This document shows positions 13,251-47,206 of a DNA stretch of 64,000 nt, piece by piece. This stretch comes from Turritopsis dohrnii (Eukaryota > Cnidaria > Hydrozoa > Anthoathecata > Oceaniidae). Position 1 is the stretch's first letter. Every line of letters starts with the position of its first letter. The stretch is taken from positions 1 to 64,000 of the forward strand of contig BQMF02000470.1 in NCBI GenBank assembly GCA_027922465.2. Direction: 5' to 3'. Under the pieces are notes generated by a model that did not search any database, was not told the origin of the DNA, and worked only from the letters and a program-made list of their open reading frames with translations. A program made the translations under genes and the position numbers.

Positions 13251-13280
13251 TTTGGATTATGTTGTTAGACTTTGTTAGTT

Positions 13281-13309
13281 TGTTTTTTCTTTTTTTTTTT
13301 TTTTTTTTT
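13281..13309 (+). repeat. Poly(T) tract
   Basis: A nearly pure T run, much longer than the matching place in copy B (around 37915). A simple-sequence expansion. Confidence 0.85.
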
Positions 13310-13619
13310 GCGAAGTTGTAAATAGTGATTATAGGTTGACCTTGGATAGTTTCGATTCGTCTACATTTGAGTTGAACTGTGATTCATTAAACAACAAAAG
13401 AGTTTATTCAGTCACGTCTGAGTATCAGTAAATGAACTTCTGTTCCATTAAATTTCCTGGATAGATATTCTAACAAAAGCACGTTCTTTAGGAAAGACAC
13501 ACCCAACACGACACTCAACCACGTTTTGAAATACTATGAGAAGATTTTTATATTAGGTTGTATACAGTAGGACTATTGCTTGCTCTTCCAACAAGGTAGA
13601 AGTGTATGATTGTATTTTG

Positions 13620-22880: not shown

Positions 22881-22976
22881 TTCCGTTAACATGGCTTCGT
22901 CAACTAAAAGACGCAGGAAATCATCCGATACCGTAAGACGTCTTTAATAATATTTTTTACTCGTTCCTTCGTCACC

Positions 22977-28049: not shown

Positions 28050-28228
28050 TAATTTATTTTATTGAAATGATAAAAAATAATGCGTGGAAGTTAACTGAAT
28101 TTTGCGCATGTGCATGCCTTAACCAGTGTTGATCTTTTATACAAGGCGTTTTGAAGCGCTATTAAAAAATTATAATAAAAATTTAAAAGATTGCATTTCT
28201 TCGGAAAAAATAATAATAACGAAATTGA

Positions 28229-28393
28229 TGGACTCCTTTTGTACACATTTCAGACTCCATTTTGACACTAAAGGACTCCATTGTTACATTAGGACTCCTT
28301 TTTAACAATATGTTCGGACTCCTTTTGTACTCTAGGACTCCTTTCGTACACGATCGGACTCCATTCGTACACGATCGGACTCCTTTCCACACG
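28229..28393 (+). repeat. Degenerate tandem GGACTCC array upstream of gene B
   Basis: About eight units of 19-25 bases, each starting GGACTCC(T/A)TT and often followed by GTACAC or GTACACGATC. The last unit is about 130 bases upstream of the first candidate ATG of gene B. A GC-richer stretch with CCATAATGGAGG follows at 28425. The placement suggests a promoter-proximal minisatellite, but no regulatory role can be shown from sequence. Confidence 0.65.
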
Positions 28394-28523
28394 TTATCGG
28401 TAGCCGGCAATATCGCGTACGCTTCCATAATGGAGGTCCTTCAAGCGGCAGAGAGGCGAACAGACGTTTTTGGTTGAGAAGTTTAGCTGGTGTTGTTTAT
28501 CTGATTTAGATTATTTTTCAAAA

Positions 28524-29982
28524 ATGGAAAAAAAAGTTCAGCAGACTGTTGTGAGTTGTCAAGCATATAACTCTTTTTGATAAACACTTGCTAGCTATGT
28601 TTATTATATAATTTCTTTTTTTGTTTTTTTATTAAACTCGCATCTTTTAGAATCAAGAAGATACAGTTATTAAATCGTTGATCAACAGTGACTCATCATT
28701 TTTGATAAAAAAATATATTGATAGTCATATAGGTATGTATATATATGTTTGATCAGCCAGTCAAATTTATGTGGTAGTAGTGTAGTAAATATTATGTTTA
28801 TTTTCACCAAAGACAAATTTACAAGAAAAAGAAGCTTTGGATATTAATAACTACAAAATTTATAATTTACAATCATATTTATAAAATAACATAGTATTGT
28901 TATTTTAAAGTAAGGAAGTTGTAAACTTGTCTATGTTAGTAGGGGGGAACGAACACCTACGAGGACTAGTCGAGAGAGGAGGAGGCCACCGTTAAATATT
29001 AGGACTTATCAGCTACTTGTATGTATAAAGTTACATTGATGTTCAAACACAGCCAGAAATCTTTTTTATGCGATCAAGTGAGAGTATAGTGCTGTTTTTT
29101 CACTCAGCTCAGATGTTTGGATGTGACAAGCCAGTAAATGTTTAATTAAAATAGACAGCAATGAATCATTTCCCCACTGAACTTTTTAAGAAATTTAGTT
29201 TTTACATAATGTCAATCTATAAGAAATCATGTATATATATATATATATAAAACTACATTTTGAATGTCAAGCTTTCGAGATTATTCTCTTCTATTCTTTT
29301 ATATTTTCTATAACTACACCTGATGCTGTTTCTGATAAAATATATTACATATGAACAATTAAAAACACATCTCTTCACAAATTTTCGATATCTTACATAA
29401 TCTTTATCAAGTTAAAAATGATACAAATGTTGAACGTTTATTTAGAGAAAAAAATTGAAAATTAAAATTAACAAGAGGTTAGGTTTGAATAAAGATCGTG
29501 ATCAATTAAGTTAAGAATGTGCGTGCAGTTAAAATGATATAAATATATATATAATATAATAGATGAGTTCTGATGTTACCAGTGAAAGTTCTGTTTAAAA
29601 TCTAAACAAACTTCACAAAAATGGATTTTGAGTGCTAATGAGTATTAGTTTTTATTATTTTAGTTGTCTTAAAAATGCCTCCTGATAACCATTTTAACCG
29701 ACAAAATCTTGAAGTGTATAGGGAGCATCTAATTGCCAGTGAAGATGCGTGTCTATACAGCATTATGTTGAAACTCATAGCTAAAAACACCGATGCTTAT
29801 AAACATTATGTCACTTAGAAAATCATCAATATAACCATTAATAGATTTGTGATAGCTATATACCAAAACTCTTTTGTCCACAGCAAGTTAGCCTTAGAAG
29901 AGATATATATGTTACTTGATTTTCAAACTGAAAACTATTTGCTTTACCTTGAGGAGCACTACTCTGATTATTTGATTTAATT
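28524..29982 (+). pseudogene. Gene B: N-terminal candidate exons
   Basis: Exon 28524-28550 encodes MEKKVQQTV and ends at GTGAGT. Exon 28651-28732 encodes NQEDTVIKSLINSDSSFLIK and seven further residues, and ends in phase 1 at GTATGT. The segment from 29664 joins in that phase, reading VVLKMPPDNHFNRQNLEVYR and on to HYVT. A TAG at 29816 then interrupts a frame that otherwise stays open to 29982. No domain is recognised. The join from here to the SET exon at 30625 is unresolved, and intermediate exons may lie between. A candidate upstream promoter is the GC-richer region at 28390-28520. Confidence 0.5.
29163..29385 (+). repeat. Direct repeat R1, partner of 31411-31625
   Basis: About 215 bases from CATTTCCCCACTGAAC to CACATCTCTTCACAAA occur twice with only a few differences, both inside introns of gene B. 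A second pair, R2, is at 30966-31073 and 31629-31736. The copies indicate local tandem rearrangement in this part of the gene. Confidence 0.85.
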
Positions 29983-30624
29983 ATAAAGCATGTAAATCTT
30001 AGTCAATAAGAAAACAGGGTCATAAGCAAACTGTTATCAGAGTTTTCAGAGCTATGAAATCAGTTAGTGTGATATGGGATAGTACGATGATGAAGAAGTG
30101 AGGTACTTTCCTCAAGTAGCCAAGAAAAAGATAGATATATCTCAAGGGGAATACAAAGTTGAATAACAACATTGACAAGATAAATGGATTTGGCTGAGAC
30201 TGTTCAATGTAATAAGAAAAATATAAAGGTGAGCCTTAAAAGTTATCACTATGTATTGATTACAGATAATCTCATTCTACTACAAACTGCAGCAAAGATG
30301 ATGAGCGTTAACAACTTCTGGTTAATCAAAAAGAGGACTAACTTTGCCAAAATTATATACCTGTAAAATAAATAATGTTTATTCAATTGTTGTATTTAAT
30401 TGTTGCTTAAATGACGGTTATATGATGAACATGAAAAAATTAATCTGAATACTGCCTGAAGGATAGTATTTTTCTTCTCTTATTTTTATAGATTGGTTCA
30501 TCGCCAATCTATAAACAAGTGCGATGTAGCTCAGCTTTCTCAATAAGACAAAATATTCAGAAAATTCCTTTGACACTGAAAAGTTATTATTTGATTTAAA
30601 AATGATATAAAAACCCTTTCATAG

Positions 30625-31938
30625 GCTATGGTGTTTTTACTACCACATCCATCAAGAAAGGACAGCCATTGTTGGAGATGAGGGGAATATTACTAAAAAA
30701 CAAGCAAGCGCAGCAGCAGGCTTTAGAGTATCGAAAAAGAAAAATTAGCTGCTCTATGTTTGATGTGATATTTAAAGAAGAAAAGTTAAGGTAGGACATT
30801 GTAATTACAGAATATAAGACTTGCTATTGTGCACAAAGGTAATAATAAACCTTTTTACTCTTACTACTCTCTATTTTAAATTCAAGTGACAGAGAAGTTA
30901 TAATAAACCCATTTAATAAATTTGTATTATGAAATGTGATGTATTATGCATATTTTTCTGTAAGAAAGAATGTTAACCAATGGAACTGATCTGATTTACC
31001 TTTTATATGGGGAGTTGTGTTCTAATAGTTTTTCATTATACTTCATAAATATGTACACCACAGCATATATATATATTTTTTTTTTTTTTTTTTTTTTTGT
31101 TTGAATTTATTTTACCGAGGCTAGAATTTTGCAGTGAAAACACTGATGTGGGCCTCCACCAGGAATGTATACCTCAGATTTTAAGGCAGAGAACTTGCAC
31201 ATACTAGACTGATAGGTGATTGTGGTCTTAAGTAATTTTTTGGCACTCGTTCATTACATTCACAATTTCATACGGCCTTCTGCTGCATACATTAACATTC
31301 TATAAGTGTTCATATCACATTAGCATTCTTTTACAGTGCCGAGATTTGAACCACTACCAACTATCACCCTTGTATTACAAGCCCACCGTCTTACCAAGTG
31401 AGCTATACACCCATTTCCCCACTGAACTTTTTAAGAAATTTAGTTTTTACATAATGTCAATCTATAAGAAATCATGTATATATATATATATAAAACTACA
31501 TTTTGAATGTCAAGCTTTCGAGATTATTCTCTTCTATTCTTTTATATTTTCTATAACTACACCTGATGCTGTTTCTGATAAAATATATTACATATGAACA
31601 ATTAAAAACACATCTCTTCACAAAGAAGAGAAAGAATGTTAACCAATGGAACTGATCTGATTTACCTTTTATATGGGGAGTTGTGTTCTAATAGTTTTTC
31701 ATTATACTTCATAAATATGTACACCACAGTATATTTTATTTTTAGTATAGATACAACTTTGTCAACAAGTCTTGGGAGATTTGTCAATGACTCTCCACCA
31801 AAATTGGCCAACTGTCTTCTGAAGAAATTTGTGGTGGGAAACATTCCCCATTTATTTTTGGTGGCCATTGTGGATATACTTCCTGGCTGTGAATTGCGAT
31901 ACAGCTATATATCCAATGATTTATGGTGGCGGTCAGAT
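30625..31938 (+). CDS. Gene B: SET domain exons (KMT5A-like)
   Basis: Two exons. 30625-30790 follows an ATAG acceptor and encodes GYGVFTTTSIKKGQPLLEMR, the SET-N strand start, then a helix. 31746-31938 joins in phase 2 and encodes IDTTLSTSLGRFVNDS, NIPHLFLVAIVDILPGCELR and YSYISNDLWWRSD. The order G-x-G-V-F, D-(A/T)-T, G-R-x-x-N-x-S, D-I-x-x-G-x-E-L-R-Y matches KMT5A/SET8-type lysine methyltransferases, which methylate histone H4 K20. The normal NHS triplet is NDS here and YDYG is YSYI, so catalysis is doubtful. The intron between the exons holds a SINE and local duplications. Confidence 0.8.
31076..31410 (-). mobile_element. tRNA-derived SINE in an intron of gene B
   Basis: On the minus strand the element begins at about 31410 with GGGTGTATAGCTCACTTGGT (A-box region) and has the B-box-like GGTTCAAATCTC about 55 bases on. 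A tRNA-unrelated body of some 230 bases follows, and a poly(A) tail appears as a T run at 31076-31098. It sits exactly between repeats R2 and the second R1 copy. Confidence 0.75.
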
Positions 31939-32017
31939 GTATGTAATACCATTTTTATATATATAATGTTATAATATCAGATCAATATTATCGTGATATG
32001 TTTTATTGTAATTTTAG

Positions 32018-32578
32018 GTTAGGTATTATGCTTCATGTTTCAAACCAGTGGTATGCAATCCAATCTTTTATTTTTTATCCTAATTTGACAAAAAAAATCA
32101 GATAGATTTATTTGATTAGTTTTATGTTTCTTTGAAGATCTTTTGTTAGCATACTTTTTCATTTAGGAAGTGGAGATAGAGTTTGTTTCGGAGAGTGATG
32201 TACAGGTAAGAAGATTCTTGTTGTTTTATATTAATGGTTAATGGTCAAGTTCTTATGTTTACCTTATCATTTGGACTTTATGGGATCGATTTTGTTTTAT
32301 TTTTTCTTAGCAAATATGTAGGAATTCTTTTTCTTGCCCATCTTCATTAATTTTATTTTCATGTTAGGTTATTGCGATTGAGAAAACAAACTCGGAACCT
32401 AATTGTAGAGTATGTACTTATGTACAGATTGTGTTTGTTTAGTAGGGATTCTTCTCTGCAGGAATATATCCAACAATGAACATTGCATGTTTATGGAAAT
32501 AGTCAATGGTTATGAAAGTGAAATACATGTCAAAAATATCCTTGTAGGTTGCTCTAAAAAGATTAATGCCCAATTCTG
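32018..32578 (+). CDS. Gene B: linker mini-exons after SET
   Basis: Four short exons with clean GT/AG borders: 32018-32050 (VRYYASCFKPV), 32167-32205 (EVEIEFVSESDVQ), 32368-32409 (VIAIEKTNSEPNCR) and 32548-32578 (VALKRLMPNS plus one base). The first three are phase 0 and the last ends in phase 1, matching the next exon. The WWRSDVRYYASCFKP stretch parallels WRKLPSCLKPQ after the SET domain of gene C, which supports homology of the two genes beyond the domain itself. Confidence 0.6.
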
Positions 32579-32665
32579 GTAAGCACAAACTGATAAAAAG
32601 AAGTTTTCTATTCCAACAACAATTCATGGTGATATGTTTAAGGGTGTTGTTTCATTCCTTTGCAG

Positions 32666-33178
32666 CTAAAGTTACAGCACTGAAAGAGCCATTCTTCAAA
32701 ATTGAAGACAAAGAATGGTTAGCTGTTTATTTTATATTTAAATTATGATGTATATCTGATAAACATTTAAGTTTATTCATTCAGTTTAAGTTGTCCACGT
32801 TTCTATGAGGGAAAATTTCCTTCAATTTCAACCAGTTCTGGGGAGTCTCAGTATCCCGAAAGAATAATTCGAAATGACTATGACTATGGCTACTGTGAAT
32901 GCTGTGACACAAAGTTTGAAGACTTAAATGAGGTATTTGTTATGAAAGACTTGCCCATTACAGTTTTGAACATGACTGCAGATGTACTAAATTATATTCT
33001 ACCAAAAATTACTCATTTCAGTTCCCCTTCTTCGAAAACTACTTATCGAAAAACTTCCCAAAAGTTCTTACCACAGTCTCTTGCCTTAAATTAGTTTTTT
33101 TGTTTAGCATTTGACTGGAACTGAGCATAGAAACTATGCAACCAATCCACTGAATTATCAAGTGATCGATGACCTCAG
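32666..33178 (+). CDS. Gene B: DBF4-type motif-M-like segment and CCHH zinc finger
   Basis: Exon 32666-32717 encodes AKVTALKEPFFKIEDKE, resembling motif M of DBF4 (LK-P-F-x-K-x-E-D). It joins in phase 2 to 32785-32932, which encodes CPRFYEGKFPSIS and NDYDYGYCECCDTKFEDLNE. That joins in phase 0 to 33108-33178, encoding HLTGTEHRNYATNPLNYQVI then DDLR. The C-x2-C, then H-x5-H arrangement with GYC at the front and R-x-(F/Y)-A behind is the DBF4-type zinc finger signature. In DBF4 these two elements bind and activate CDC7 kinase. Finding the pair in this order is good evidence of descent from a DBF4 gene, not a chance finger. Motif N (BRCT) is not seen. The donor at 32718 (GTTAGC) is weak, so this junction is the least certain. 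Confidence 0.68.
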
Positions 33179-33348
33179 GTCAAAAACTAATACGAACTCT
33201 TCAATGTAGGTAGTTGGTTCTCTTTCTTATGAATCTTTAGTTTACTTTAGACTTTGAAATATGGAATTATCTGGAGTATTAAACATTTCCTTTCATGTCA
33301 AAATCTATAGTCACTAAAGCTACTGTTACCATGTCCTTTCCCTTTTAG

Positions 33349-34400
33349 TTTTGCGATGCTATATGCTACCATGGTGAGATTAATGTTATTTTATTCCTAA
33401 TTTAGTCTTAAGTCTTCTTAAATGTCTTCCTTTTTGCCTGCCCTGCATATCTTTTACATTAAAAATGTTATCTTACAGGGTGAAGATAATGTTGCTTGCC
33501 CTAGCTGGAAAAAATACAAGTAAATATTGGATGTCTTCTCAGGCTTGTTTATTAACTATATCTTCTGAAACCCCAATAAAATAAAAACTTTATGCATTTT
33601 CAGAAATGTGCAAGATGTTCCCATTGAGACCATCAAAGAAATGATGGATAATCTAAACAGTCAAATTTTATGTATATTTACTGGGAAGGTATAGTCCAGC
33701 ATTGAGTAACTTCAATTCCAGATTGTTAACCTTAGTTCCTAAAAACTATTTATATCATTTTCTTTATTAGACGTATTGTGAACGATATCAGCGATACAAG
33801 GCAGGTGGTAAACAGAAAGGTAACTCACTTAAATCTTCACTATATAGTAAAAAAGTGTTTCGTCTAAATTGCAGCTTAATTCGGCATAGGGAGGTTAAGA
33901 GTTGTTGACGTATGCTCCCCTTATACAGAAGAACAGGAAAGTACAATCATGGTTAAAATCCTGGAAATTTTTGATCCCGCTGAGCGGAGGAAGGTAGAAT
34001 AGTTTATTTTTACTTACTGAAATTTCAATTTGCTTCGTGCTTTACGATCGAAACAGCTCTTGTAGTATCGGACTTCTTTTTCTCGTTTGGTGGGACGGAC
34101 TCTTTTTTTACATTCAGAAGATAAGGTATTCCTCGGAAGCAAATTGATGTTTTGTCTACGTTGAACTGTTTCTTTTTAGTATTTTGACTACGTTTTCAAA
34201 GTATTATTTCCGAAAAGTACGGTGTTATTGTATTGCTTATATGCCAATGTTAGCCATTCCGAGGTACCATTTGGTTTATTTGCAATTCTTTTGAAACCCA
34301 TTATTATTAAAAATTATTAATACTTTTTGTTACTTTTTGTTACAGGCCAGCAGATACTTACAGCAGGTATGGCAAAGACCTGAGAGTGAAGACGAAGAAG
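33349..34400 (+). CDS. Gene B: six small middle exons
   Basis: Exons 33349-33373, 33479-33519, 33604-33688, 33771-33819, 33929-33993 and 34346-34400 join in frame. They include SFAMLYATM, GEDNVACPSWKKYK, NVQDVPIETIKEMMDNLNSQ, TYCERYQRYKAGGKQK, EEQESTIMVKILEIFDPAER and ASRYLQQVWQRPESEDEE. No named domain is recognised. Conservation of borders and phases with copy A shows that these were real exons when the duplication happened. Confidence 0.6.
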
Positions 34401-34471
34401 GTAAAGCTTTCACTTTCAGTATTCCCGATTGGTAGATTGCCCAGCGAATTTCAGTCTTATATTATTTATAG

Positions 34472-34926
34472 TTGCATCTGAAGAAGCATTGGAAGCGGAA
34501 CTTAAGGAAATATTAAATATTAAAGACGTTGAATGGAAAGATGGAGAGAAAGAACAATTTATGGCAGATAACGAGGAACGGAACGTTGAGGTTGCTATAG
34601 TAGATGACGTGGAACGGAACAATGAGGTTGCTATGGTAGTTGGTGTGGAACAGAACGATGAACTTCCTATAGTAGATTACGCGGTACGGAACATTGAGGT
34701 TGCTATAGTAGATGACGTTGAGTGGAACAATGAGGTTGTTAAGGCAGTTGGCGCGGAGCAGAATGATGAACTGGTAGGTAACGTGGAACGGAACGTTGAG
34801 GCTGGTATGGTAGTTAATAAGGATCGGAATGATAAGCTTGCTTTGATAGATAACGCGGAATGGAATGCTGACGTTGCTATGGTATATGACACAGAAAGGA
34901 ACGCCCATGTGGAGTTCAATTCAAAT
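34472..34926 (+). CDS. Gene B: acidic 12-residue repeat exon
   Basis: After VASEEALEAELKEILNIKDV the exon consists of about ten tandem 12-residue units of the type E-R-N-x-E-V-A-x-V-x-D-x (for example VERNNEVAMVVG), ending at the donor GTGAGT. At DNA level this is a 36-base minisatellite. Copy A has fewer units. Such acidic repeats often form flexible or coiled linkers. The exon joins in phase 0 to 35143-35198 (TFPDNNLTIHKEQYVKRKA). Confidence 0.65.
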
Positions 34927-34971
34927 GTGAGTGTCACTTTATTATTGTATCAAACTTTCCGTAAAGGTAAC

Positions 34972-35043
34972 GGATCGAGTGGGGATTGAACCCACGACCT
35001 CTCGTTTGCCGGGCGATTGCTCTACCGACTGCGCTATCGATCC
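34972..35043 (-). tRNA. tRNA-like sequence in an intron of gene B, probably a pseudogene
   Basis: The 72-base sequence has a perfect 7-bp acceptor stem (GGATCGA/TCGATCC), a perfect T stem (GTGGG/CCCAC) with loop TTCAATC, a D arm with GCGCAGTCGGTAGAGC, and a standard AGGTC variable loop. The anticodon arm is poor: two of five pairs mismatch, and position 33 is C instead of T. The anticodon would be GGC (Ala) by position. It is antisense within the intron 34927-35142 and absent from copy A, so it arrived after the duplication or was lost from A. Confidence 0.5.
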
Positions 35044-35275
35044 GATGACATTACATTACATCTTTATTATTATATTTGCAATTCCGTATAACAAAGGGAT
35101 ACATTAGCTACTTGTTATTTTTTCTCGTTAATTTCATTCCAGACCTTTCCAGATAATAACCTGACCATTCATAAAGAGCAATACGTTAAGCGAAAAGCGT
35201 AAGTTTTCAATGTGGAGATTACTTATCTGTGTAAACCTTTTTTGTGTATTTTCATTTGTTCATCCAACATTTTAG

Positions 35276-37279
35276 CCCTTCCCGTCACGGCAGACAGTGT
35301 CCTGTGTCTGTCTGTAAGCAGATTGTCCAAAATTTGCCAAGGCATTTGATGCTAAAACATAAATGGACGAAGGCAAGCTGTGGTGCTGTTATGGGACAGT
35401 TCTCCTTAAGAAAACAATCGCAACCAAAGGTTAAAACGCCAAAAAAGGGAAATCAAAAAGACTATCACTTTGCACGGATTTGCCCTGTCAAAGGCTGTTA
35501 CAAAGTATTGAAAAGATTGCCAAGGCATCTTCTAGTACATCATAAGCTACCTCGGAATGCGGACTATTACAAACTACTAAAAGAAGCACAAATGTTTAAT
35601 ACCAGCATTCTTCCAGAGACAATTACAAAATCTCCTCGATCGTTATTCTCGAATGCCAAAAAACATTCTTCAACTACAGTAAAGATACCCACTACACCTA
35701 ATTCATCAGAGCCAGTTACGAATTCTCCGCGATTGTTATTCTCAGAAGCCAATAAAGATTCTTCAACTACAAAAAACATACCCACTACACCTAATTCATC
35801 AGAGCCAGTTACGAATTCTCTGCGATTGTTGTTCTCGAAAGCCAATAAAGATTCATCAACTACAAGAAAGATACCCACTACACCTACTTCATCACTCAAC
35901 AAATATTATGAAAGTGACGATGAGGATCCGTTTTCGGAAGATGAGGATTCAAAAGACGCAGAATTGCCACGGGATGTGAAAGTTGTTTTGAATGGCTTCG
36001 TAAGATACCTACAAAGCCCAGATGGTGGCAACAGAGTATCTTGCGTTCAACTCAGTGATGATGTAAAACGCATATATTTGGTTTTAAGCAAAAACCAACC
36101 TTTTTCAATGTTTTTCGATATCAAGCAATTCCGTGATAACTATTTAATAGAATATTGCAAATTTCGCAATAGTTTACCGGGAACCTTAAAAAAGTACCTG
36201 TTATCTGTTGATATCTTCTGCGAATATCTCATTACCGAAAAAGTTGGGATCAGGGATGTGTCTTCTGCCCAAATACTAGATTTGAAGTTAAAACTTAACG
36301 GGTGGAAGAAAAGCTATCAAAAAATGGATCGGAAACGGAAATGGGAGAGAGATATTGACGATTTTTCCATGTTGGTCACCCTGGAACAAGTCCAAGCATA
36401 TGAAAAAAGTGATCATGCTGTTAAAGCGAAAGATTTATTTGCGATACTTAAAAGGAGTAATGTCAATGTTACGCAAACACAGTATTGTCAGATGAGAGAC
36501 CATTTGTTTTCGGCGATCCATTTTGCTAATGGTCATCGATCAGGAGTATCGGCAAACGTTTTGGTTTCGGAGTTTCATGCCGCAAGAAAAGTAGGTGGTG
36601 TTTATGAAATTTTCGTTAAAAACCATAAGACCTCACACGCATATGGTCCTGCCGCGATAACTTTAAATGAGGAGGAATATGGCTGGCTCAACATATTCGT
36701 CACGAAAGTTCGACCTCAGATAAACTCGAACAGTCCAAACGTGTTCTTGTCTTGGACTGGATCTTCTATGGATCCGGGTCAAATCAGTCTAAGAATTCAC
36801 CAACTTTGGGTCAAGGGTGGAATATTTGAGAAGACGCCTGTGAAGAACTTGACCTGCAATATTATAAGAAAATAAACAAGCACAGGCATACGAGATAAAG
36901 GTCTAGGCTTTAATCAGGAAGTTGCAGACTTAATGGGACACAGTTTGGAGACAGCAGAGTCGCATTATTTCATTAGAAGAAAGCAACAAACAGCAGCTAA
37001 AGGTGCCGAAATCGTTCGGAAATACTTTCGGACTGTTCCCGAACCTCCAACTGATTTTGTAGTCACCAAAGACTTGACTACCTCATCCCCAAAGCATTTG
37101 TGGACTATTAGTGACATCACTCAACTGAAGGGAATATTTTCCGAAGAAATAGAAAGGAATCATGTGTCTATGGCAGATGTTAGAGAGAAATTTAATGAAT
37201 GCTCAAAGTTTTTCGGAACTAGTGAGAAACAGATATATGATAAATATGAAGTTTGATGCGTTACTCTCCTAAGTGCAAA
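35276..37279 (+). pseudogene. Gene B: C2H2 fingers, tyrosine recombinase, SANT-like domain
   Basis: The exon opens with PSRHGRQC and two C2H2 fingers (CPVSVCKQIVQNLPRHLMLK; CPVKGCYKVLKRLPRHLLVH). Three copies of a 31-residue Ser/Thr/Pro-rich repeat (35626-35890) and an acidic patch follow. The recombinase has an N-terminal SAM-like helical part (KKYLLSVDIFCEYLI), then the catalytic set: Arg in HRSG (36537), Lys in NHKTS (36627), Arg in NIIRK (36867), His in MGHS (36939) and Tyr in SHYF (36966). The usual first His of H-x-x-R is Asn. Such enzymes cut and rejoin DNA through a 3'-phosphotyrosine. TAA at 36873 cuts the protein before the last two residues. Copy A lacks this stop. The SANT-like region is WTISDITQLKGIFSEEIERN, and a lost base near 37246 breaks its end. 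Eukaryotic relatives are Crypton-like transposons and genes descended from them. Confidence 0.85.
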
Positions 37280-37638
37280 GTAAGTCTTATCCTAGAATAG
37301 AGGTTTATAAGTCCCAGTTTATTTACCTGCTTAAGAGTATTGGTATCCCCAAATTCTTCAAATGATCTTTTTCTCAATTTCGTTCGTTCAAATGGTTTTC
37401 AATGGTCTCACCTTTTTTGTAAATGTTAATTTTTAGAGACAATTACCAACATTACCAAGACCAGTGTCTAGCTGCACAGCTACTTTAGTAAGTGTGATGA
37501 ATTCTTCCCCTGATATTGTGATCCGCTTACTTGTTTTGACATTTCCATATTTTCAGTAATGCAGCGCATTGTTCTGTGCCATGAACAACATTCTGACTAA
37601 TGATTCTTTCGTATTACTTTTCGTATTTGACTTTTTAG

Positions 37639-37848
37639 CAGAATTTTTGCCCTTCACCGGAAACAAGAAGAAGACTTTTTTCCCGTAAAGAGATAGAGAT
37701 ATTGAAGAAAAAGTGCAAGGCAATTATTGATGGTGGTCCGTTGAACGAACAAAGGATTCGCACTGCATTAGATGGAGACTTGTCCCAGTATAGCTTTTCG
37801 CAGTTAAGGACGAGATTAGATTATGAACGAAAATTGAAAAGGAAATAG
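37639..37848 (+). CDS. Gene B: terminal exon
   Basis: Follows a CTTTTTAG acceptor and reads QNFCPSPETRRRLFSRKEIE, then a helical basic module with QRIRTALDGDLSQYSFSQLR, ending KLKRK and TAG at 37846. It resembles a second divergent SANT/Myb-like DNA-binding module. Copy A lacks the first part of this exon and its acceptor. Confidence 0.65.
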   Translation, partial: QNFCPSPETRRRLFSRKEIEILKKKCKAIIDGGPLNEQRIRTALDGDLSQYSFSQLRTRLDYERKLKRK

Positions 37849-37874
37849 TAGAAAGCAGTAGAGTAGAACAAGTC

Positions 37875-37880
37875 AATAAA
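37875..37880 (+). terminator. Polyadenylation signal of gene B
   Basis: AATAAA 27 bases after the stop codon, conserved at the matching place in copy A (13244-13249). A GT/T-rich tract follows. Confidence 0.6.
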
Positions 37881-38241
37881 GTTTGGATTATGTTGTTAGA
37901 CTTTGTTAGTTGGTTTTTTCTTGTTTTTCTTTCGAAGTTGCAAATAGTGATTATAGGTTGACCTTGGATAGTTTCGATTCGTCTACATTTGAGTAGAACT
38001 GTGATTCATTAAACAACAAAAGAGTTTATTCAGTCACGTCTGAGTATCAGTAAATGAACTTCTGTTCCATTAAATTTCCTGGATAGATATTCTAACAAAA
38101 GCACGTTCTTTAGGAAAGAAACTCCCAACACGACACTCAACCACGTTTTTAAATACTATGAGAAGATTTTTATATTAGGTTGTATACAATGGGACCTATT
38201 GCTTGCTCTTCCAACAAGGTAGAAGTGTATGATTGTATTTT

Positions 38242-40234
38242 GTTTCAATACCCGGCCATTTACTTTGCTTTTACTACCTAAATTGTTCGCAAACTTAGAT
38301 AAACATGGTTACAACCTCTGGATTGAGCAAAAAGACGGTAGTTGAACTTTCATTATGCTGACATGGAATACTCTGAGTCCCCTTTTATTCGAGCAAATAA
38401 TTTCGGCTTATTGTGTGTCAATACATTAATACCCAATTCTGTCTGTTAGTCGCACGAAATGGGAACTCTTAGTTGGGAAGTGGCTTTACGCATTAAGCTT
38501 GAAAAACAGTAAACTATTGGGAAAAAGACACTATACCCAGATATCATTACTCTAAGATCTAAGGATGGTCATTGCAAATGAGTAATTTAAGGGCCCAAAT
38601 CTCGTAATCTAAAAGGAATTACTGACGTCTCTTGGGGTCAACGGGTAAGACCACGTACTGGACTAAATTGTTGGTGTTAGACTAAATTCATGGAACTGAT
38701 TGAATGCCCAAAATGCCTTTGATCCACTTTAATTTTTGACAAAAACCTCCTTACAACTCTTCACATTTCTCAAAACATATATGGCAAGTACTTTCAAATT
38801 CATTTGAAATGACAATTTCATCTTAACAACTCTTTTTACAGAAACTTTTGAGCAAGTATACACAGTTAGCATGAAATATAATGAAATGAATATAGAATAC
38901 TAAATGACTTATTTTGTGAATTCGAAGGGCATCTCACAAAGGAATACAAATAACCAGTTAAATTGGTTAAATTAACGTTCGAAAACAGTGGTTCGTCAAC
39001 AATAGGTGGGGGTTGTGCTTTGTCTCAATGTATTTAATGTTTCCCGGGGGAATTAAATCAGAAGTTTCACAAAAGTTGAATAACGAAAATCAATAGATTA
39101 TTCCAGACTTTTTTGAACTGGCCTCGTACTAAGTAATCAGCTGTTGTTTTAATACATTAGAGCCAACTAAAAGTGAATTGAAAAGGTAAACTATGGGCTA
39201 TTAAGGAATTTGCAATACGTCATCGAAATGGATCAGAAAGTTAAGCATTGGTTATCCCTTTACGAGGATTATGTTTATAAAATGTTTGGTGCCCCGGATA
39301 AACTGCATTTACAACTTATACGGACTCCTTTGTAAGGTGTAACGTACAGCCAAACCAGCTTTATCCATAGACGAAATATTCAGCGTGAAACAGATATAGA
39401 CCTTTCCCGAATTTCTGTTGAAACACCGTGTTAATGCCTTGTTATGAAGATTTGCCTCTATATTATGTTTTTTATTGTTTTACTAATTACATCTATTGCT
39501 TAGTAATCTTCACTTATTATTTCTATTCCGCAGTGGGATAATTAAAGGCAATTAAAATCTTTAAAACGAGGTCATACTTTAGGCCATCTTTAATGTTTAT
39601 TCTCTCCACGTAATCAATATTTGAACCATTTGATTAGGTTTCGGAAAATTTCGTGTCGGAAAAAATTTACCAACGGACTCCTTAATAAAAGCTACGCGAA
39701 AAGAGAGTGTAAAATGTATCCTTCAACCATTTATTACCGCGGCAGATTTGGACAATTTGCCGTAAGTTCGGCCAAATAGTTTGAGATGTCCCGCGGGAGT
39801 TTTGAGACTAGTTTTGAAATATCCTGTTGGACATTTTCACTCAAAATGTCCAGGTGGGAGTTTGAAAAGTTTCGGCAAAGTGGTACAAAAGCATCCGAAC
39901 ATCCAAACCAGCGGCCGAGAACAAAAATGTTACTCTCTCATGACTTAATTTTTACAGACCATTTAGAATTTTTGAAGAATCAACAAACCTCTTAGTCGTA
40001 AAATTCCTGCAGCAGGTCCTGATGTCATCTGGCCGGGTGTTTCAAAGATCTTGCAGGACAAAGGAGGCTGGAATTTTACATACGCCCAGTCGGACATTTT
40101 GAGGGAAAATGTTCGGAGCCGGGTGGTTCAAGACCAGTTTCAAAACTTTCAGTTCAATTTACCTTTCCAGGAAAATTGCACAATTTCATCGAACGGCAAT
40201 CCTCAAGCATACATAATTGCTTTATGAATTATCT
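38242..40234. other. Unannotated stretch
   Basis: Unique to this locus after the duplicated block. AT-rich, with no convincing exon or element end seen. Short frames at 39786 and 40176 have no recognisable domain; the second runs into the MITE. Confidence 0.35.
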
Positions 40235-40494
40235 CAACTTCGTTCCCAGGTCTTCTTCGAAACGAAAGAAAGCCCTGGCACAGGCCGATAAAAAATCACT
40301 CAGCGGTCTTTTTAGGGCCCCCGTGCTTCAAAAACAAATGGCGAGTTATAATGGAGATGTCAGGCGTTTGTTTTCAAGAATTCAATTTGCATTGGAAAAA
40401 AATGATTTAAATTCATCAGCCAATCAGATTTTATAATGGACCAGCCTGTGCCAGGGCTTTCCTTCGTTTCAAAAAAGCCCTGGGAACGAGGTTG
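40235..40494. mobile_element. Fold-back MITE with 10-bp target duplication
   Basis: 260 bp. The first ~60 bases (CAACTTCGTTCCCAGG to GCCCTGGCACAGGC) are repeated inverted at the right end with few mismatches (CCTGGGAACGAGGTTG at the border). The target duplication TGAATTATCT is exact at 40225-40234 and 40495-40504. A 9-10 bp duplication is typical of Mutator-like elements, so a MULE-type MITE is likely. CCTCGTTCCCAGG-like ends are, from memory, common in cnidarian genomes. Confidence 0.88.
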
Positions 40495-40504
40495 TGAATT
40501 ATCT

Positions 40505-41900
40505 GTTATTTAGGAATGGCGGATGTCACAGGGAAAGTCAACATAGTCCTTTCTAACATTATGGTTTTTCGACTTTTTGAATAGTAAGCACAATGAATAT
40601 CCGTATCAGATTCTTCATCCCTTACATTAGAAAAGGAAATCCAAAATAATTGGAATCAAAACACCGATCAAAGAAAGCGTTTAACAACCTCGAACTCAAA
40701 ATCTTTTCCCTTTTCGATATACGGATCTGCATATTGGAAAGGCAAGAGGACCCTGGGTTGCAGTTTGTTCCAGATCTAGGTCATGTCAATAAACATTTGA
40801 AATTCCCTTAAGTTAAATACTAAGACTTAACAGTGGTTTCAGAACATTCGGAAAACAATATCGATCTTAGGAGTAGATACCATCATATTTCAATCACAAC
40901 CCTGACTAAATTTTCCTAGGCTTTATAAGTAAGATTATTGCAGTTTGTTGTTTTACAGTTTGGTTAAAGAATGCATGCTATGTCTTAACAAGGCTATTAA
41001 TAAAACATTGACGCAATCAATGTAATCGTACATATTTGGATGATAGCATAATATCAAGCGCATATCGTTTTATCCACTCTCTATTATGTTGGTTCAATTT
41101 GGAACTTACACTAGATTTTCAGGATAATGTACGTGACCATTTATATGGATTTCAGGCTCGGATCCAACACTAGTGCAGTTGTTGAGCCGTGACATGGCAA
41201 AGCAAGCTTGTAATGGTATATGGGATATATATAAATATAAAACACTTTTCCAAGCCGGTTGATCGTTCACCCGTTAGATCGTTTTCTACGGGCAGTTTTC
41301 TATTTCACGTTGATTTTGGCTTCATCATATATATAATACGCAGTGTGCATAACACTTTTATCTTAAAGAGTGATATATATTTTTTTTTCGGTCATTTTTT
41401 TATACATTTGACGTAAAGCGACGCAGAGGCGACGTTAGTTTTTTTCGGGAAACCCTTGTATTAACAAGAAAATACTACGGAAAAAAATGCTCTAGATCCA
41501 GTCTCCCAGGTAAAAATTATTTACAAAACGGTTTCTCTTCCACGATTTTTTTTTGTTTTTGTCATGAACGCAGCGATTTGTTGTTTTACGAAATTCAACC
41601 TTAAAAGGTTTTTATGCGGGATAAGTATCCTTGATAATTTACAAAACACATATATTTCATTAAATTTAAAAGCCAGTAAGGTGAAGACCAGTGAAAAAAC
41701 ATCGTGGTTAAACTCCCATGATAATAATCTCCACTAGTAAAATTATCCAAACTTATTTCTTCGGCGTCTTATAATCTGATCGGAAATTACTTTCCAGATT
41801 TTCACCGATCAAATTATTTTCCCTTATTTCCATCATTAAATTCATCACAGAACAGAACATTCATGACTTTCTGACATTGCATGTGCAAGACAGACTAAAC
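40505..41900. other. Unannotated stretch
   Basis: No gene, RNA or repeat recognised. The LINE 3' tail begins at 41901 on the far side. Confidence 0.35.
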
Positions 41901-44900
41901 ATTATTATTATTATTATTATTGAATATTTACCCAGGATAAAAACTTCAGTAATATGTACAATATTTACAATATATACAAATACTGTTATCAATGTTTGTC
42001 CTGCATAGTATTCAAAACAAAAAATAAAAAATAGATGTAATATATATAAAAGGTGGAATATGTTTATTTGTTTAAAGGAATAATAAAGATAAAAAAACAA
42101 CTTAAAGCATTGCATACGAAATAGCGCCAGCAGGAAAGCCAGAGATAGGGTGGGTGCTATTATGGAATGCTTTAAATTTGGTTATTAAAATCGGCCTAAC
42201 GAGTCACTACGATCACATAGTGACTTAAAGTTCTTAATATCGTGCTCTTTTCTGAAATTCAACGGCAGCTCATTATAAATTTTAGCTCCTAGAAAATAAA
42301 AAGATTTCCGAGCAGCCTCAAGTCTTACTTTTGGTAAACGTAATAAAGTACCAGTGTTTCGAGTTGTGCGATTTGATTCAAACAGTTCAAAATAGTTTCT
42401 GAAATTTTCATTTACGTCATCATGAATGCACCGGTGGACAAATACCGCCGTCATTTTCAACTTCAATGTTTCGATGGGAGCGGGAGCAACATGGGTAGTA
42501 CGTGTGGAGATTATTCTGCACGCTCTTTCGTCTATTGAAGCCAATTTACGTTTTTGAGTGTCAGTGAGCGAAAAACAGATCGAAGGACAGTATGTTAATA
42601 TCGGTACCACCAGAGATACATACAGCGTCAACGCTGCCTTGGTGGTAAGGAATGGTCGAAATCTTGACATAAGTCTCAATCTGCTGGATGCCTTTTTGTA
42701 AGATTTTTCAAAGTGACTTGTTAGTAGCAGAGTCTGATCCAGGACAATACCCAGGTATTTGTACTCTTTGGTTTCAGTGACATTTTTGTTGTGAAAGGAT
42801 ACATGATTGAGATTGTTGTTTTTCAGTTTTTGACGTGTCCCAAACAACATACATTCTGTTTTCCCCTTTTTGACATTTGGGATTAATTGGTTTCGATTCA
42901 GCCAACTGGAGATGTAGGAAAGGTCTTCATTCAGGTAATGCTCGATTTGTTCCTTTTGCTTTGATGAGACAAATATCACTGTGTCGTCAGCGTATGTTAG
43001 TATTTTACAGTTCTTAACACATTCGTGGATTCCATTAAAATGAATCAGGAACAAAAGGGGACCCAGCAGGGAACCCTGAGGTACGCCACAGTACACAGGC
43101 TCAGGATGGGAAAGTTCATTGTCAAATTTTACGCACTGCATTCTCCCAAACAGGTAATTGGTAAACCATTCATTTGGGGTGTCTCTGATACCATACTGAT
43201 TGAGTTTGGAGATGAGTGAACCATGGCTAACGGTGTCGAACGCCTTACATAAATCGATGTAAACTACGCCCGTCAATTCACCGTCATCCATAGCTTTTCT
43301 GATGTGGTCGACAAGTAATACTGCAGCGTGTTCGGTGGAACGAGTTGGTCTGAAGCCAAACTGATACAATGAAAGCAGTTTATTTGACTCAAGGTATGTG
43401 ATCAACTGAGAGTGGACACATTTTTCTAATATCTTGGATATAACTGGCAGGATTGATATTGGACGGTAGTTTTCGACTTTGTTCGAGTCTCCAGATTTGA
43501 ATATCGGTGATATGCGAGCAATTTTAAAGTCACTAGGTACGATGCCAGAAGAAAGTGATGAGTTTATAAGATGTGTTAGTGGTCTTTTGATGACATCTCT
43601 GACATCTATCAAATATCTTGCAGGTATGTTATCTAATCCGGTTGCTTTTTTGCGTTTCAGGTTTTTCAGATGCCGATCAACCAGACTTACAGATACTTTC
43701 TTAAAAACAAACTTTGGAAAATTCGAATACTTGTCCTTAGTTGCGTCACTCCATATATAGTTCGTAATTAAAGGAGAAATGGTTTTCCGAAGGGACTGAG
43801 CAATCGTAGAAAAGTACTCACAGAAGTGTTTGGCAATTGTAGGCTTTTCGGTAGTTCTTATGCCATCAATAACGAAAGACTCAGAGGAGCTTGAGACATC
43901 CTTCGTTGGAAAAATTCGTTTGAGTGACTTCCAGAATTTGTCAGAATTTTTTGAGTTTCTTTCGAGAAGTAGTCTATGGAAGTTACGTTTAGCGGACTTT
44001 ATCAGGTTGTTAATAGAGTTTCTCATGGTACGGTATAGAGTCCAGTCCTCAGCTTTCTTAGATTTACGAGCCTTGCGGAGGAGTGTATCTCGCTTATTCA
44101 TTTTTGTTTTTAAGGATCTGTCTAACCATTCGCAGGGTTTTCCTCTGACTTTTTTCTCGATGAAAGGAGCATGGCGATCTAAAATATTTATTAGCGTTGA
44201 TTTCATAAAGTTCCATAAAGTCTCAGGATCATCACATTGATAAAACGGTTGCCAATTAACGTTTTGTAGCTCGTTGATAACAGTGGCAGTATCATAATTT
44301 CTGTAATTTCTACATTTTATGGTTTTTGAAAGAAATTTTAGTTGATTTATTTTCCGTACACAACCAATCATTTCGTGATCACTGAGGTCTGTAGGGATGG
44401 TACCTTCATTGTTGATATTAATTGGTTTATTCGCGTAGATTACATCAATTAGCGTTTGCGAACGATCGGTAATTCGTGTTGCAGATTTAATGAGCTGTTT
44501 ATATCCATGCAACTCAAAGATACGTTTCAGTTCTTTATGATCATTTTTAACGAGATAATTACAGTTTGTATCTCCCAGGATAATTACCTCTTTTTCAAGC
44601 AGAGCTATTTTTGAAAGCATTTCATCAATTAATATATCAAAGTTTCTGTGTAAATGTTTTGATCCATCGGGGGGTCGGTATAAGGACCCTACAAGGAAGC
44701 TTTTAGTTTGTGGTGGAGAAATTTCAATCCATAAACACTCTATTTCGGGATTTTCCAAATCTTTTCTTCTCGTGCAAGAGATTCCTTGTTTGATATAGAT
44801 ACCCACGCCTCCTCCTGCACCTGAACCTCTGTATTTTTGTTCATATGTGTAACCCGGAATTTGTAGAAATGACAATGGAGTGTCTGTTGTTGTGAAAGTT

Positions 44901-45320
44901 TCATTCAAGCAGCATACATCAATATTATATGTGTTCAAAAGTTCAGCAAGGATATCTTTCTTTCCCAACAAACCTCGTATGTTTTGATGTATAATTTTGA
45001 TTCCTCGGCGTAATGCAAGATTTCGAAGCTCTTTTATAAATACACTTTTTGGTCCTGGGCATAACTCTATATCTCCAGACAAAATCAACAGAATTTGTGT
45101 CACCGCTTTTGGTGGAAAGTAAACAAATCCTTTATTATATACCCAAAGCGATGAAATCAAATGATTACTATAAATATTATCAACAGCTTCTCCATGAAAC
45201 GAATAACAAACAGAATCTGCATTAACAAAACTAGCTTTTTTGATACATAAAGCCAAACATATCGAAATAGCAAGTCTTAGGATGATCGTGATCGTGACCG
45301 TACTCGCCGCCATCATGAAT
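41901..45320 (-). mobile_element. CR1/L2-like LINE, near full length
   Basis: On the minus strand it starts just upstream of ATGATGGCGGCG (45316), has one long ORF and a 3' UTR of about 260 bases, and ends in an (AAT)n tail (41901-41921). At the 5' side the flank is the relic gene at 45321-45661, so the element landed in older repetitive sequence. A matching target duplication was not found by eye. Confidence 0.85.
42185..45316 (-). CDS. LINE endonuclease-reverse transcriptase, open frame
   Basis: The open frame extends to 45391, but the first 25 codons read flanking sequence; the start at 45316 (MMAASTVTITIILRL) matches that of the related LINE at 7590. The N-terminus is hydrophobic and signal-like, followed by the 2A-like motif SGDIELCPGP (about 45050-45073), in which Asn of NPGP is Cys. 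Endonuclease: IKIIHQNIRGLL, LNETFTT, ILGDTNCN and SDHEMIGCV (normally GDFN and SDH). Reverse transcriptase: YRPISILPVISKILEKC, FGFRPTRSTEHAA, YIDLCKAFDTVSHGSL, GVPQGSLLGPLLF and TYADDTVIF near 42990, so the catalytic aspartates are present. A C-terminal region follows. About 1,043 residues without a stop is a complete length for a CR1/L2 ORF2, so recent mobility is plausible. No ORF1 was seen upstream. Confidence 0.92.
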   Translation of the reverse strand: MMAASTVTITIILRLAISICLALCIKKASFVNADSVCYSFHGEAVDNIYSNHLISSLWVYNKGFVYFPPKAVTQILLILSGDIELCPGPKSVFIKELRNLALRRGIKIIHQNIRGLLGKKDILAELLNTYNIDVCCLNETFTTTDTPLSFLQIPGYTYEQKYRGSGAGGGVGIYIKQGISCTRRKDLENPEIECLWIEISPPQTKSFLVGSLYRPPDGSKHLHRNFDILIDEMLSKIALLEKEVIILGDTNCNYLVKNDHKELKRIFELHGYKQLIKSATRITDRSQTLIDVIYANKPININNEGTIPTDLSDHEMIGCVRKINQLKFLSKTIKCRNYRNYDTATVINELQNVNWQPFYQCDDPETLWNFMKSTLINILDRHAPFIEKKVRGKPCEWLDRSLKTKMNKRDTLLRKARKSKKAEDWTLYRTMRNSINNLIKSAKRNFHRLLLERNSKNSDKFWKSLKRIFPTKDVSSSSESFVIDGIRTTEKPTIAKHFCEYFSTIAQSLRKTISPLITNYIWSDATKDKYSNFPKFVFKKVSVSLVDRHLKNLKRKKATGLDNIPARYLIDVRDVIKRPLTHLINSSLSSGIVPSDFKIARISPIFKSGDSNKVENYRPISILPVISKILEKCVHSQLITYLESNKLLSLYQFGFRPTRSTEHAAVLLVDHIRKAMDDGELTGVVYIDLCKAFDTVSHGSLISKLNQYGIRDTPNEWFTNYLFGRMQCVKFDNELSHPEPVYCGVPQGSLLGPLLFLIHFNGIHECVKNCKILTYADDTVIFVSSKQKEQIEHYLNEDLSYISSWLNRNQLIPNVKKGKTECMLFGTRQKLKNNNLNHVSFHNKNVTETKEYKYLGIVLDQTLLLTSHFEKSYKKASSRLRLMSRFRPFLTTKAALTLYVSLVVPILTYCPSICFSLTDTQKRKLASIDERACRIISTRTTHVAPAPIETLKLKMTAVFVHRCIHDDVNENFRNYFELFESNRTTRNTGTLLRLPKVRLEAARKSFYFLGAKIYNELPLNFRKEHDIKNFKSLCDRSDSLGRF

Positions 45321-45661
45321 GGTATGGCATTTACGGCACTCTTCCCCCACTCCTCCATTTGTTCCGAGCACAAGGTGATTGAATGATCCACGTTCTACTT
45401 TCAGTAATCTGCTGTAGATATTCACGTTTCTTAGCATCTTCGTGTGTTGATGTTTCGAGGTTTTTTAGAGGACTCGGAGTTAACATACGTGACTCTAATA
45501 TCAAAAAATGCAGTTTCTCTTTTCCTCCAAAAACCTCTTGCTTTCAGACGTGCTTCATTACCAGACTTTAAAGATTTCAGATCGCAAGTGTTTTTGTAAA
45601 TAGGAATTAAGTGTTTTTTCTTTTTTTTTTCGACGCCATTACAAGTTTTGTTCAAGAACAC
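45321..45661 (-). pseudogene. Relic of an unnamed repetitive gene (ARGFW...FFDIRV)
   Basis: The minus frame reads NEARLKARGFWRKRETAFFD and IRVTYVN, then in the same region HEDAKKREYLQQI. After a one-base shift it continues KVERGSFNHLVLGTNGGVGE, where the LINE interrupts. I recall similar sequences as repeated uncharacterised proteins in other invertebrate genomes, but cannot name the family or its function. The motif set is conserved enough to mark a real protein fragment, not a chance frame. Confidence 0.5.
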
Positions 45662-45966
45662 TGTTAAGAAATCACGAAAAGTATCATGTATTTTTTACTA
45701 CAAAGCCACCTTTACAAATCATTGCATGACACACAGTAAATTGCATCTCTGAATTCTTCTTTATTAAGATCTAGGTGTTGCTCTTGGAGTTAGCCGTGCA
45801 CTTTCGCCTTTGTCACAGGTTTGTTGAATAATAGGCTTTAATTCTTCGAGTAAGTTGTTATATATTATATCAAGTTCTTGTTTCTTTTTTTGTAACTGTA
45901 CTGATTTTGCAGCACTTTTCAAATTTGCTAACATTTTACCGTTACGCTCTTTCTGGCATGATGTTT
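45662..45966. other. Unannotated spacer
   Basis: Nothing recognised; flank of the relic gene. Confidence 0.3.
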
Positions 45967-46201
45967 TCTTGCCTATTTTAAGGCAATACCTATTTAGGAG
46001 TCAGATCGGTCAAGGAACCCCAATCTTTGGTCAGTTTTTGCATTTTTGTTTTCCTAATGTATATACCTATCTTTTGTAAAAATTTTCCTATTTTAGGCAG
46101 TATCTATATAGGGGTCAGATCGACCAAGGAACCCGAATGTTTAGTCAGATTTTGCGTCTTCCTGTTCTTGATATTTATACCTAACTTTCAAAAAAATTTC
46201 A
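45967..46201 (+). repeat. Tandem duplication of a ~116-bp unit
   Basis: The stretch from TATTTTAAGGCAATACC to AAAATTTTCC is followed by a diverged copy from TATTTTAGGCAGTATC to AAAAAATTTC, sharing GTCAGATCG, CAAGGAACCC and GTCAG motifs in the same order. Two units, clearly diverged. Confidence 0.7.
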
Positions 46202-46695
46202 AGCCTGAGACTCGTGACATGAAAAAGAGTTTTTTTTTCTGTTCCGTTTTTGGTCTCTGGAAGCTGTAGGAACCCTGACCCCTTACAGACTGGCTGATCA
46301 TTAATACTTACCATCAAACAAAGACACCTAAACTAGTTAAAATTCTGAGGAAAGTGACATGGAAAAATGTGACGAGAGTTCTTACACTAAAATGGAGATG
46401 TAGATACCGTAGATTAATACGTCACACAATTGTTGTTTTTTTCCCGATTTTTAAAGCATTCAATTCATCTTATTAAAAAAGGAAAATAACTTTTCCACAA
46501 GTATCATCACTTTTGAAAGCGTCGTTGTAAATTCGTTATAATGAAGATGAAGACTGCGAAGCTGAATAAATTACATGTAACCTTTTACGTTTTTTGAATT
46601 TATGGATAATATTTTTTTATTCACCGCACACGATTGATGTATGGTTTTTTTGACAATTGTCGTCAGCATGCGGTAAACGAATGTGGAGAAGGATG
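46202..46695. other. Unannotated stretch
   Basis: No gene or repeat recognised. Confidence 0.3.
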
Positions 46696-47206
46696 CACTG
46701 AGAAATGTACCTGAGTCATTTTGACTCAGCTCAGGTAGTGAATTGTCATTGACTACCCACGTTGTCAGAAAGTAGTTATTTTGACTATTTCAACAAGCAG
46801 TCGTGGCAAAACGGTAGCTTGTTCGGCTGGCATACCAGAGGTTCCGAGTTCGCCTCTGGTCGAACGCTAAAAGCCGCCAAAAGGGAAAATTGACGATTAT
46901 AGGGGTCTACGATACAGGTGATGAGACGACAAAAAATTCTAAACTGCATACCGTCGTGATACGAAAACAAATGAAATTGACTCATCTTAGGTGGTCCATA
47001 TGACTCAAGAAAGGCCGCCATTTTATTTGTTCGACTATTTATGGTCGTCAAATTTACAGGGTTTTAAAAGTCATTTCAACTCGCGAAAGGTGGTCATCAA
47101 TAGGACTCGTTAAGGTCGTAGCAATGACTCAGGAAACGATTCGTGAGAGGCACTGTAAATTACTACCTTTAAATCGTCAAATTTGACTCAGTTACATTCC
47201 TCAGTG
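46696..47206. mobile_element. MITE with CACTGAG termini, carrying a tRNA-like module
   Basis: The left end CACTGAGAAATGTACCTGAG pairs with the inverted right end CACTGAGGAATGTAACTGAG, with further matches (TCATTTTGAC against TCAAATTTGAC). About 510 bp, no transposase. CACTG ends occur in CACTA/Chapaev-type elements, but no target duplication is visible, so the superfamily is open. A tRNA-like module lies at 46799-46870. Confidence 0.7.
46799..46870 (+). other. tRNA-like module inside the MITE
   Basis: GTGGCAAAACGGTAGC, TTCGGCTGGCATACCAGAGG and TTCCGAGTTCG correspond in order and spacing to the module at 16092-16166 (minus), around A-box-like and B-box-like motifs. It is degenerate and unlikely to make a tRNA. 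Confidence 0.5.

Follow-up and report, generated by a model that had tools for sequence, protein, structure and literature searches.

Tyrosine recombinases (YRs) serve several kinds of mobile element. DIRS and Ngaro retroelements use YRs, and the HarbingerS and MuDR elements, which enter the comparison below for another reason, are DDE transposons. Cryptons are DNA elements whose recombination enzyme is a YR; the YR is described as the only recognisable domain of animal Cryptons, no terminal repeats are reported for them, and CryptonA is reported from cnidarians (PMC3212892). The Starships of fungi are described as large, cargo-rich elements classed by their YR. Transposons that captured chromatin enzymes (TET, SET) are likewise known, and SET lysine methyltransferase genes are reported to have been taken up in Phytophthora by transposons of the HarbingerS and MuDR types (PMC12730594, citing Repbase Reports). 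Here we describe a unit in the genome of the jellyfish Turritopsis dohrnii that is probably a dead copy of a 20.7-kb YR DNA transposon with a single intron-bearing gene, in which SET, DBF4-like, C2H2 and YR parts are joined. It lies in what we call the window, the whole stretch of 64,000 nucleotides that was analysed (assembly GCA_027922465.2, contig BQMF02000470.1, positions 1 to 64,000 of the forward strand). Searches of open-licence papers in PubMed Central, which leave out most subscription papers and Repbase entries, turned up no YR element that carries SET or DBF4 parts.

The genome searched comprises 435,911,712 bases in 891 contigs; the T. dohrnii assembly TUR_r2.0.1 is given as 891 primary contigs and 435.9 Mb (PMC9835754). 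C-numbers denote contigs of this genome (C470 is the window's own), L-numbers stretches fetched from genome loci, and P-numbers database proteins found by protein searches. The element copy that starts at window position 28206 is termed copy B, and a second copy at 5149-13620 is termed copy A. The gene of copy B (28524-37848, plus strand) is readable as 22 exons:

Exons 1-2, 28524-28550 and 28651-28732, plus strand: ATG start and N-terminus.
Exons 3-4, 30625-30790 and 31746-31938, plus strand: KMT5A/SETD8-like SET domain, in which NHS reads NDS.
Exons 5-8, 32018-32050, 32167-32205, 32368-32409 and 32548-32578, plus strand: linker.
Exons 9-11, 32666-32717, 32785-32932 and 33108-33205, plus strand: DBF4 motif M and CCHH finger, split by an intron.
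Exons 12-18, 33349..34400, plus strand: middle region common to the sister families and the Hydractinia protein P0005.
Exons 19-20, 34472..35198, plus strand: acidic repeats with a 36-bp period, and linker.
Exon 21, 35276..37279, plus strand: two C2H2 fingers and the tyrosine recombinase, with a stop and a frameshift inside.
Last exon, 37639..37848, plus strand: C-terminal QLRTRxxYER region, with the stop codon TAG at 37846-37848.

The first 21 exons were delimited by GT/AG borders and phase, and the last exon was taken over from a preliminary description of this DNA. All 20 introns between the first 21 exons run from GT to AG, and the phases give one joined frame without a stop codon before 36873, so that the GT/AG borders and compatible phases claimed in that description hold for 20 of 20 introns. 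The domain order that it had read, with SET followed by motif M, the DBF4 finger, acidic repeats, two C2H2 fingers and the YR, is present in the joined exons, and its last exon is corroborated by 69 residues whose counterparts form the C-terminal ends of three sister proteins in an alignment. For the SANT-like modules that it placed at the end, a weak match was obtained, Myb_DNA-bind_4 in the database protein P0001 (E 0.12, below the cut-off). The splice sites of exons 1-3 are kept in all four other copies read (exon 4 lies only partly inside these stretches), and in the C44 copy exon 2 is longer by three inserted nucleotides. The exons of the copy B family very probably encode one polypeptide that extends from SET through YR. 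ARAGORN additionally reports a tRNA-Ala (GGC) on the minus strand at window 34970-35044, within a copy B intron.

Both host-like modules are recognised above their Pfam cut-offs in the joined protein. The SET domain occupies residues 37-146 (E 8e-11), and in a profile search against the PDB the 14 best matches of this part were all KMT5A/SETD8 (best E 7e-11), which makes KMT5A/SETD8/PR-Set7 the nearest relative among PDB chains. Of the KMT5A-type motifs, ELxYDY is kept as ELRYSY, and NHS is replaced in the sequence FVNDS. In this respect, and in being carried by an element, the domain differs from KMT5A. The exchange of NHS for NDS renders methyltransferase activity doubtful, and the SET part may bind rather than methylate; we consider a catalytically active SET unlikely, as judged from these motifs.

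The zf-DBF finger is found at residues 257-297 (E 8e-16) and is interrupted by an intron. Motif M (EPFFKIED) lies upstream of it, in the same order as in DBF4, and the best PDB match of this segment was human DBF4 (E 1.4e-11), with motif M and finger aligned in order; the finger, at 40.8 bits, carries the score, and motif M alone (5.6 bits) is not significant. When a profile of the sister proteins was compared to human DBF4, one stretch spanning motif M and finger was aligned (E 6.5e-9). The Dfp1_Him1_M match in the DBF–YR locus L010 stayed below the cut-off (E 0.022). The module thus resembles the CDC7 activator DBF4/DRF1 in having motif M and then motif C (the CCHH finger), but it differs in being joined to a recombinase and in lacking an N-motif/BRCT match in the Pfam scan of the joined copy B protein.

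The YR motifs were read by eye in an alignment, the roles of YR catalytic residues being taken as background. Copy B has HRSGV, HKT, NIIRK, and GHSLETAESHY, the last one beyond the in-frame stop, and in the aligned proteins the catalytic set R-K-R-H-Y, with the pattern R-K-(H/x)xxR-H-Y, is present as HRSGV/QRSGV, HKT, NIVRK/NIIRK, and HS..TA.EHYY. By these residues, the predicted recombinase is a divergent member of the tyrosine recombinase superfamily. The divergence shows in the profile searches: the Phage_integrase profile of Pfam stayed below the cut-off in two of the six proteins scanned (E 1.8e-4 and 3.3e-4) and was absent in four, and the NCBIfam profiles XerD (E 5e-4) and XerC (E 6e-4) matched far below their cut-offs. 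The database protein P0005 from Hydractinia did exceed the Phage_integrase cut-off (E 2e-7). A PDB profile search of the YR part returned only a chance match (di-ubiquitin, E 0.83). The three domains named in the preliminary description therefore fared differently in this check, with SET and zf-DBF above the Pfam cut-off but nothing from Pfam for the Phage_integrase domain of copy B. Comparison between families shows strong purifying selection on the YR proteins, as the proportions of synonymous (pS) and nonsynonymous (pN) differences are 0.88 and 0.15 over 302 codons of the YR exon of copy B and its counterpart in C341, and 0.83 and 0.37 between L010 and L016.

The genome contains 15 further full-length copies of the YR exon that are about 99% identical, and an unbroken 688-codon frame extends across the YR at 12 loci. 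The SET exon has 21 genome matches (152 in a search with both SET exons), and the DBF exons have 23, 18 of them full-length. When the match lists were combined, SET, DBF and YR were found in one order and on one strand at 17 loci including copy B, namely C470, C226, C122, C477, C542, C29, C44, C233, C649, C429, C261, C94, C285, C318, C67, C14, and C37, a recurrence that goes beyond chance; four of these loci, C122, C285, C649, and C37, have a YR that is broken or in pieces. The copies in C67, C429, C261, C318, and C649 lie within about 10 kb of the contig start, which may reflect contig breaks at repeats or a subtelomeric location. A further family copy in the window's own contig, at C470:94050-106807, has SET, DBF and the 3' region, with no YR listed.

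The ends of the element could be placed by comparison of these copies. In copy B, the following features define the unit:

Left part of copy B, 28206..48148, plus strand: 5' terminus at 28206.
5' terminal AAT repeat, 28206..28220, plus strand: junction with the flanking DNA.
GACTCC array, 28231..28383, plus strand: eight boxes with a period of about 21 bp (19-24 bases apart), adjoining the 5' terminus.
Remainder of copy B beyond two inserts, from C470:74906, ending near C470:80458: outside the window.

Homology to C542, C14, C29, and C44 begins at window 28206, and the left flanks are unrelated in all five copies read (copy B and these four). For the 3' end, a piece of the C14 copy (L046) was matched to 14 other family loci, all 14 of which stop at query positions 199-206, within an AATAATAAT; the matches to four loci that are more diverged (73-80% identical) end at positions 202-206 as well. 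From the common 5' and 3' ends, the C14 unit extends from 1329381 to about 1350086, which amounts to 20.7 kb. Both ends touch AAT repeats, and in 52,301 bases of other DNA from the same genome only 0.3% of bases lie within 6 of AATAATAAT or ATTATTATT. Besides these direct AAT repeats, the two ends share an 11-bp inverted match, ACGATCGGACT. To the left of the C14 unit lies a dispersed repeat, for which 24 of 39 match rows run up to the AAT stretch and then stop, and the stretch to the right is unshared with other loci apart from a short repeat. Position 48148 of the window was rejected as the right end of the element, as it is an insertion point.

The array next to the 5' terminus was compared with 2000 shuffles, in none of which any hexamer reached eight boxes. 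It is also present in C542, C14, C29, and C44, and 18 of the 42 rows in one genome match list represent this array. In a diverged family (C176, C266, and C120), the left end carries seven similarly spaced boxes of another hexamer, GGATAG, which adjoin AAT repeats in C176 and C266. We infer that the terminal box arrays are putative recombinase-binding sites. Inside the C14 element, a degenerate GACTCC cluster occurs once more, with its orientation unchanged (L040:3478-3558); it is 88% identical over 81 bp to the left end and was rejected as the right end, as the matches place the end further on.

Since the copies are dispersed, have common ends, and have different left flanks at the five loci read, the multi-copy unit is almost certainly a mobile element, and the unbroken, near-identical copies suggest recent activity. 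The preliminary description had offered two readings, an intron-bearing Crypton-like transposon that captured two host modules and a domesticated recombinase. The recent multi-copy spread, the precise ends, and the unrelated left flanks speak against a domesticated single host gene. A family of such host genes could also have been spread by segmental duplication, for example in subtelomeres, and it would agree with this that the window is telomeric, that copies A and B have their introns in common, and that some copies are near contig ends; as the copies begin and end alike at AAT repeats, the five that were read have unrelated left flanks, copies occur inside long contigs, and diverged families have conserved the YR catalytic residues under selection, we nevertheless regard this origin as quite improbable. 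The first reading, a transposon, is in line with the copy number, the precise ends, and the selection on the YR, and its Crypton part concerns a possible kinship, as detailed below.

To judge how general the association of the three modules is, we analyzed the relatives in the same genome. A YR query gave 115 matches, of which 111 loci were used, and SET was sought within 13 kb upstream on either strand. SET lies upstream of the YR on the same strand at 45 loci versus one on the opposite strand, and for zf-DBF the corresponding numbers are 42 and zero. With a 9-kb limit for DBF, the joint tally was six rows (five loci) with both modules, 39 with SET only, 35 with DBF only, and 31 with neither. 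Seventeen of the 39 'SET only' cases are the window family, whose finger is hidden by an intron. In a family with 43-46% YR identity, SET, DBF and YR occur in that order at five loci, where the DBF matches are partial and contain a stop, as a finger divided by an intron would produce. The zf-DBF finger itself has 52 genome matches, 11 of them in unbroken frames above 1200 codons. In ten of the 20 loci L009-L028, a single frame of 1101-1394 codons runs without a break through the DBF finger and all YR motifs, and the other ten are broken, truncated or cut; identity within families is about 95-99.6% over long aligned blocks. Two zf-DBF loci, L020 and L025 (C803 and C529), contain tandem repeats of about 159 bp, and one frame there is given as 2673 codons.

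Relatives outside this genome were sought by protein searches. The first one returned P0001 as its sole relative (709 aa, C2H2 and YR, 43%), and the second returned four, P0002 to P0005. Two of these, P0002 and P0003, are distant relatives; P0004 comes from a coral, has a DBF finger as well as a weak match to BRCT, and is probably a host DBF4. P0005 is Hydractinia symbiolongicarpus LOC130636789 isoform X2, and it combines the second SET half, the middle region, C2H2 and YR in one protein, like the element; its SET part is 38% identical to that of copy B and just below the Pfam cut-off (E 4.9e-4). It differs from the element protein, to which it is 24% identical overall, in having no DBF finger. 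A third search (alignment A3) gave nothing at E <= 0.001 and was uninformative, perhaps due to words from the repetitive acidic stretches. A second genome with the same domain order, which the preliminary description had named as a check, was therefore found in part only: the Hydractinia protein has SET and YR but no DBF finger, and all three modules recur in a diverged family of the same genome.

Several observations weigh against the reading as a transposon with one joined gene. The frame of copy B itself is interrupted by a stop codon (36873-36875) and shifted by a one-base length change near 37244, both of which the preliminary description had overlooked, and the joining of SET, DBF and YR is known here from genomic exons alone. 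The histidine of NHS is an aspartate in copy B and P0005. Copies A and B differ by 4.1, 4.9, and 4.2% at codon positions 1-3 and by 4.3% in introns; as these values are about equal, the window alone shows no selection, and a dating or selection estimate from this pair was rejected because both copies behave as dead DNA. For one of the full-length YR copies (C649:182783), the match lists contain no upstream SET, neither module is universal among the YR loci, and the sister in C341 (75%) has the first SET exon only, duplicated middle exons, and a YR, with no DBF found. As the assembly comes from a heterozygous animal, alleles left over in it could account for some of the 17 loci, flanks having been read at five loci. 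Finally, an empty site was sought for C14, and its joined flanks match nowhere in the genome across the join.

Part of this would also fit an element that is real but carries SET, with or without DBF, and the recombinase as separate neighboring genes. The joining seen in genomic exons only, the many relatives that have either SET or DBF, but not both, near the YR, and the DBF–YR families that consist of a single long frame, with no SET upstream in L001-L028 within the stretches read, would all be compatible with that arrangement. However, all phases join across GT/AG borders with no stop in the frame before 36873, and the Hydractinia database protein joins SET and YR in one chain. We therefore regard separate genes as improbable and retain the single intron-bearing gene.

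Copy B and its surroundings contain further mobile DNA, including the second copy in the window:

Copy A, 5149..13620, plus strand: 91-97% DNA copy including introns, beginning at exon 9 and without the SET part.
Long interspersed nuclear element (LINE), 41903..45328, minus strand: endonuclease and reverse transcriptase (frame 42185-45394), inserted in copy B and absent from C14 and C29.
26.76-kb insertion in copy B, 48148 to C470:74907: flanked by the 7-bp direct repeat TCATTAT.

Copy A is dead, with a stop in the YR and a reverse-transcriptase insert at about 7580-11084. The 26.76-kb insertion carries two SET exon halves of another element (window 61795-61953 and 55136-55237), the second half of which has the same NDS motif; a box array was sought at the left end of this insertion, and none was found. 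As DIRS- and Ngaro-type elements use YRs, the unit could in principle be a YR retroelement, but the reverse transcriptase of copy B sits in an insert that is absent from C14 and C29 (pieces of intact copies were read), and the near-identical copies that were compared retain their introns. Both points favor movement at the DNA level, and a retroelement is extremely unlikely. An endogenous DNA virus or virophage-like element with a YR integrase would account for the large size and the YR, and endogenous nimaviruses with integrases have been reported. We regard it as very unlikely, as no capsid- or polymerase-like long frame stood out (frames of at least 100 aa in the part of the window read, without a viral-profile scan) and two scans of IMG/VR, with 120 and 5 pattern matches, revealed no relatives. 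Elsewhere in the window, positions 1-3356 are a telomeric (ACCCTA)n array, so that the window starts at a chromosome end; reverse transcriptase frames on both strands at 20555-25535 adjoin the element, and a 137-bp tandem repeat is present in 6.4 copies at 50440-51313.

Among known kinds of element, Cryptons appear, as judged by description, to be nearest to the transposon described here. The jellyfish element differs from Cryptons as described above in its 20.7 kb, its introns, its SET and DBF4 modules, its C2H2 fingers, its box array, and the AAT at both ends; a YR as the only domain is not what we find, with SET and zf-DBF above the Pfam cut-off in copy B. It shares the uptake of a SET gene with HarbingerS and MuDR, but those elements are found in oomycetes, whereas here SET is in frame with YR and DBF4 parts in an animal. 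Starships, again compared by description, share the large size and the YR, but are fungal and rich in cargo.

The domain composition permits a mechanism to be proposed. The C2H2 fingers, an arm of the YR, or both would bind the boxes spaced by about 21 bp at the left end, and the YR would exchange strands between the AAT-containing ends and AAT target sites, perhaps via a circle. The DBF4-like module would bind host CDC7 and thereby bring DDK, the replication-firing kinase, to the element; we regard such a recruitment as a real possibility that falls somewhat short of an even chance. The KMT5A-like SET part would act on or read H4K20 chromatin. H4K20 methylation, like DDK, has its role at replication origins. 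As both host models are replication-origin factors, the element could become an early or extra origin, and it would gain copies by moving from replicated to unreplicated DNA.

To our knowledge, it is not settled how YR DNA transposons gain copies. The physical link of a YR to a DBF4-type module and a KMT5A-type SET suggests an answer that can be tested, as such an element may recruit the replication-initiation machinery. Tentatively, and with more doubt than confidence, we suggest that the element may represent a new superfamily of giant animal YR transposons, in which the recombinase is fused to its own origin package, a CDC7 recruiter and a KMT5A-type SET, and which would control replication timing and gain copies by moving in S phase. 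The capture of chromatin enzymes known from other transposons would in this way be extended to one reading frame in an animal genome with about 111 loci of related YRs, and the suggested recent activity concerns a jellyfish that is studied for its life-cycle reversal.

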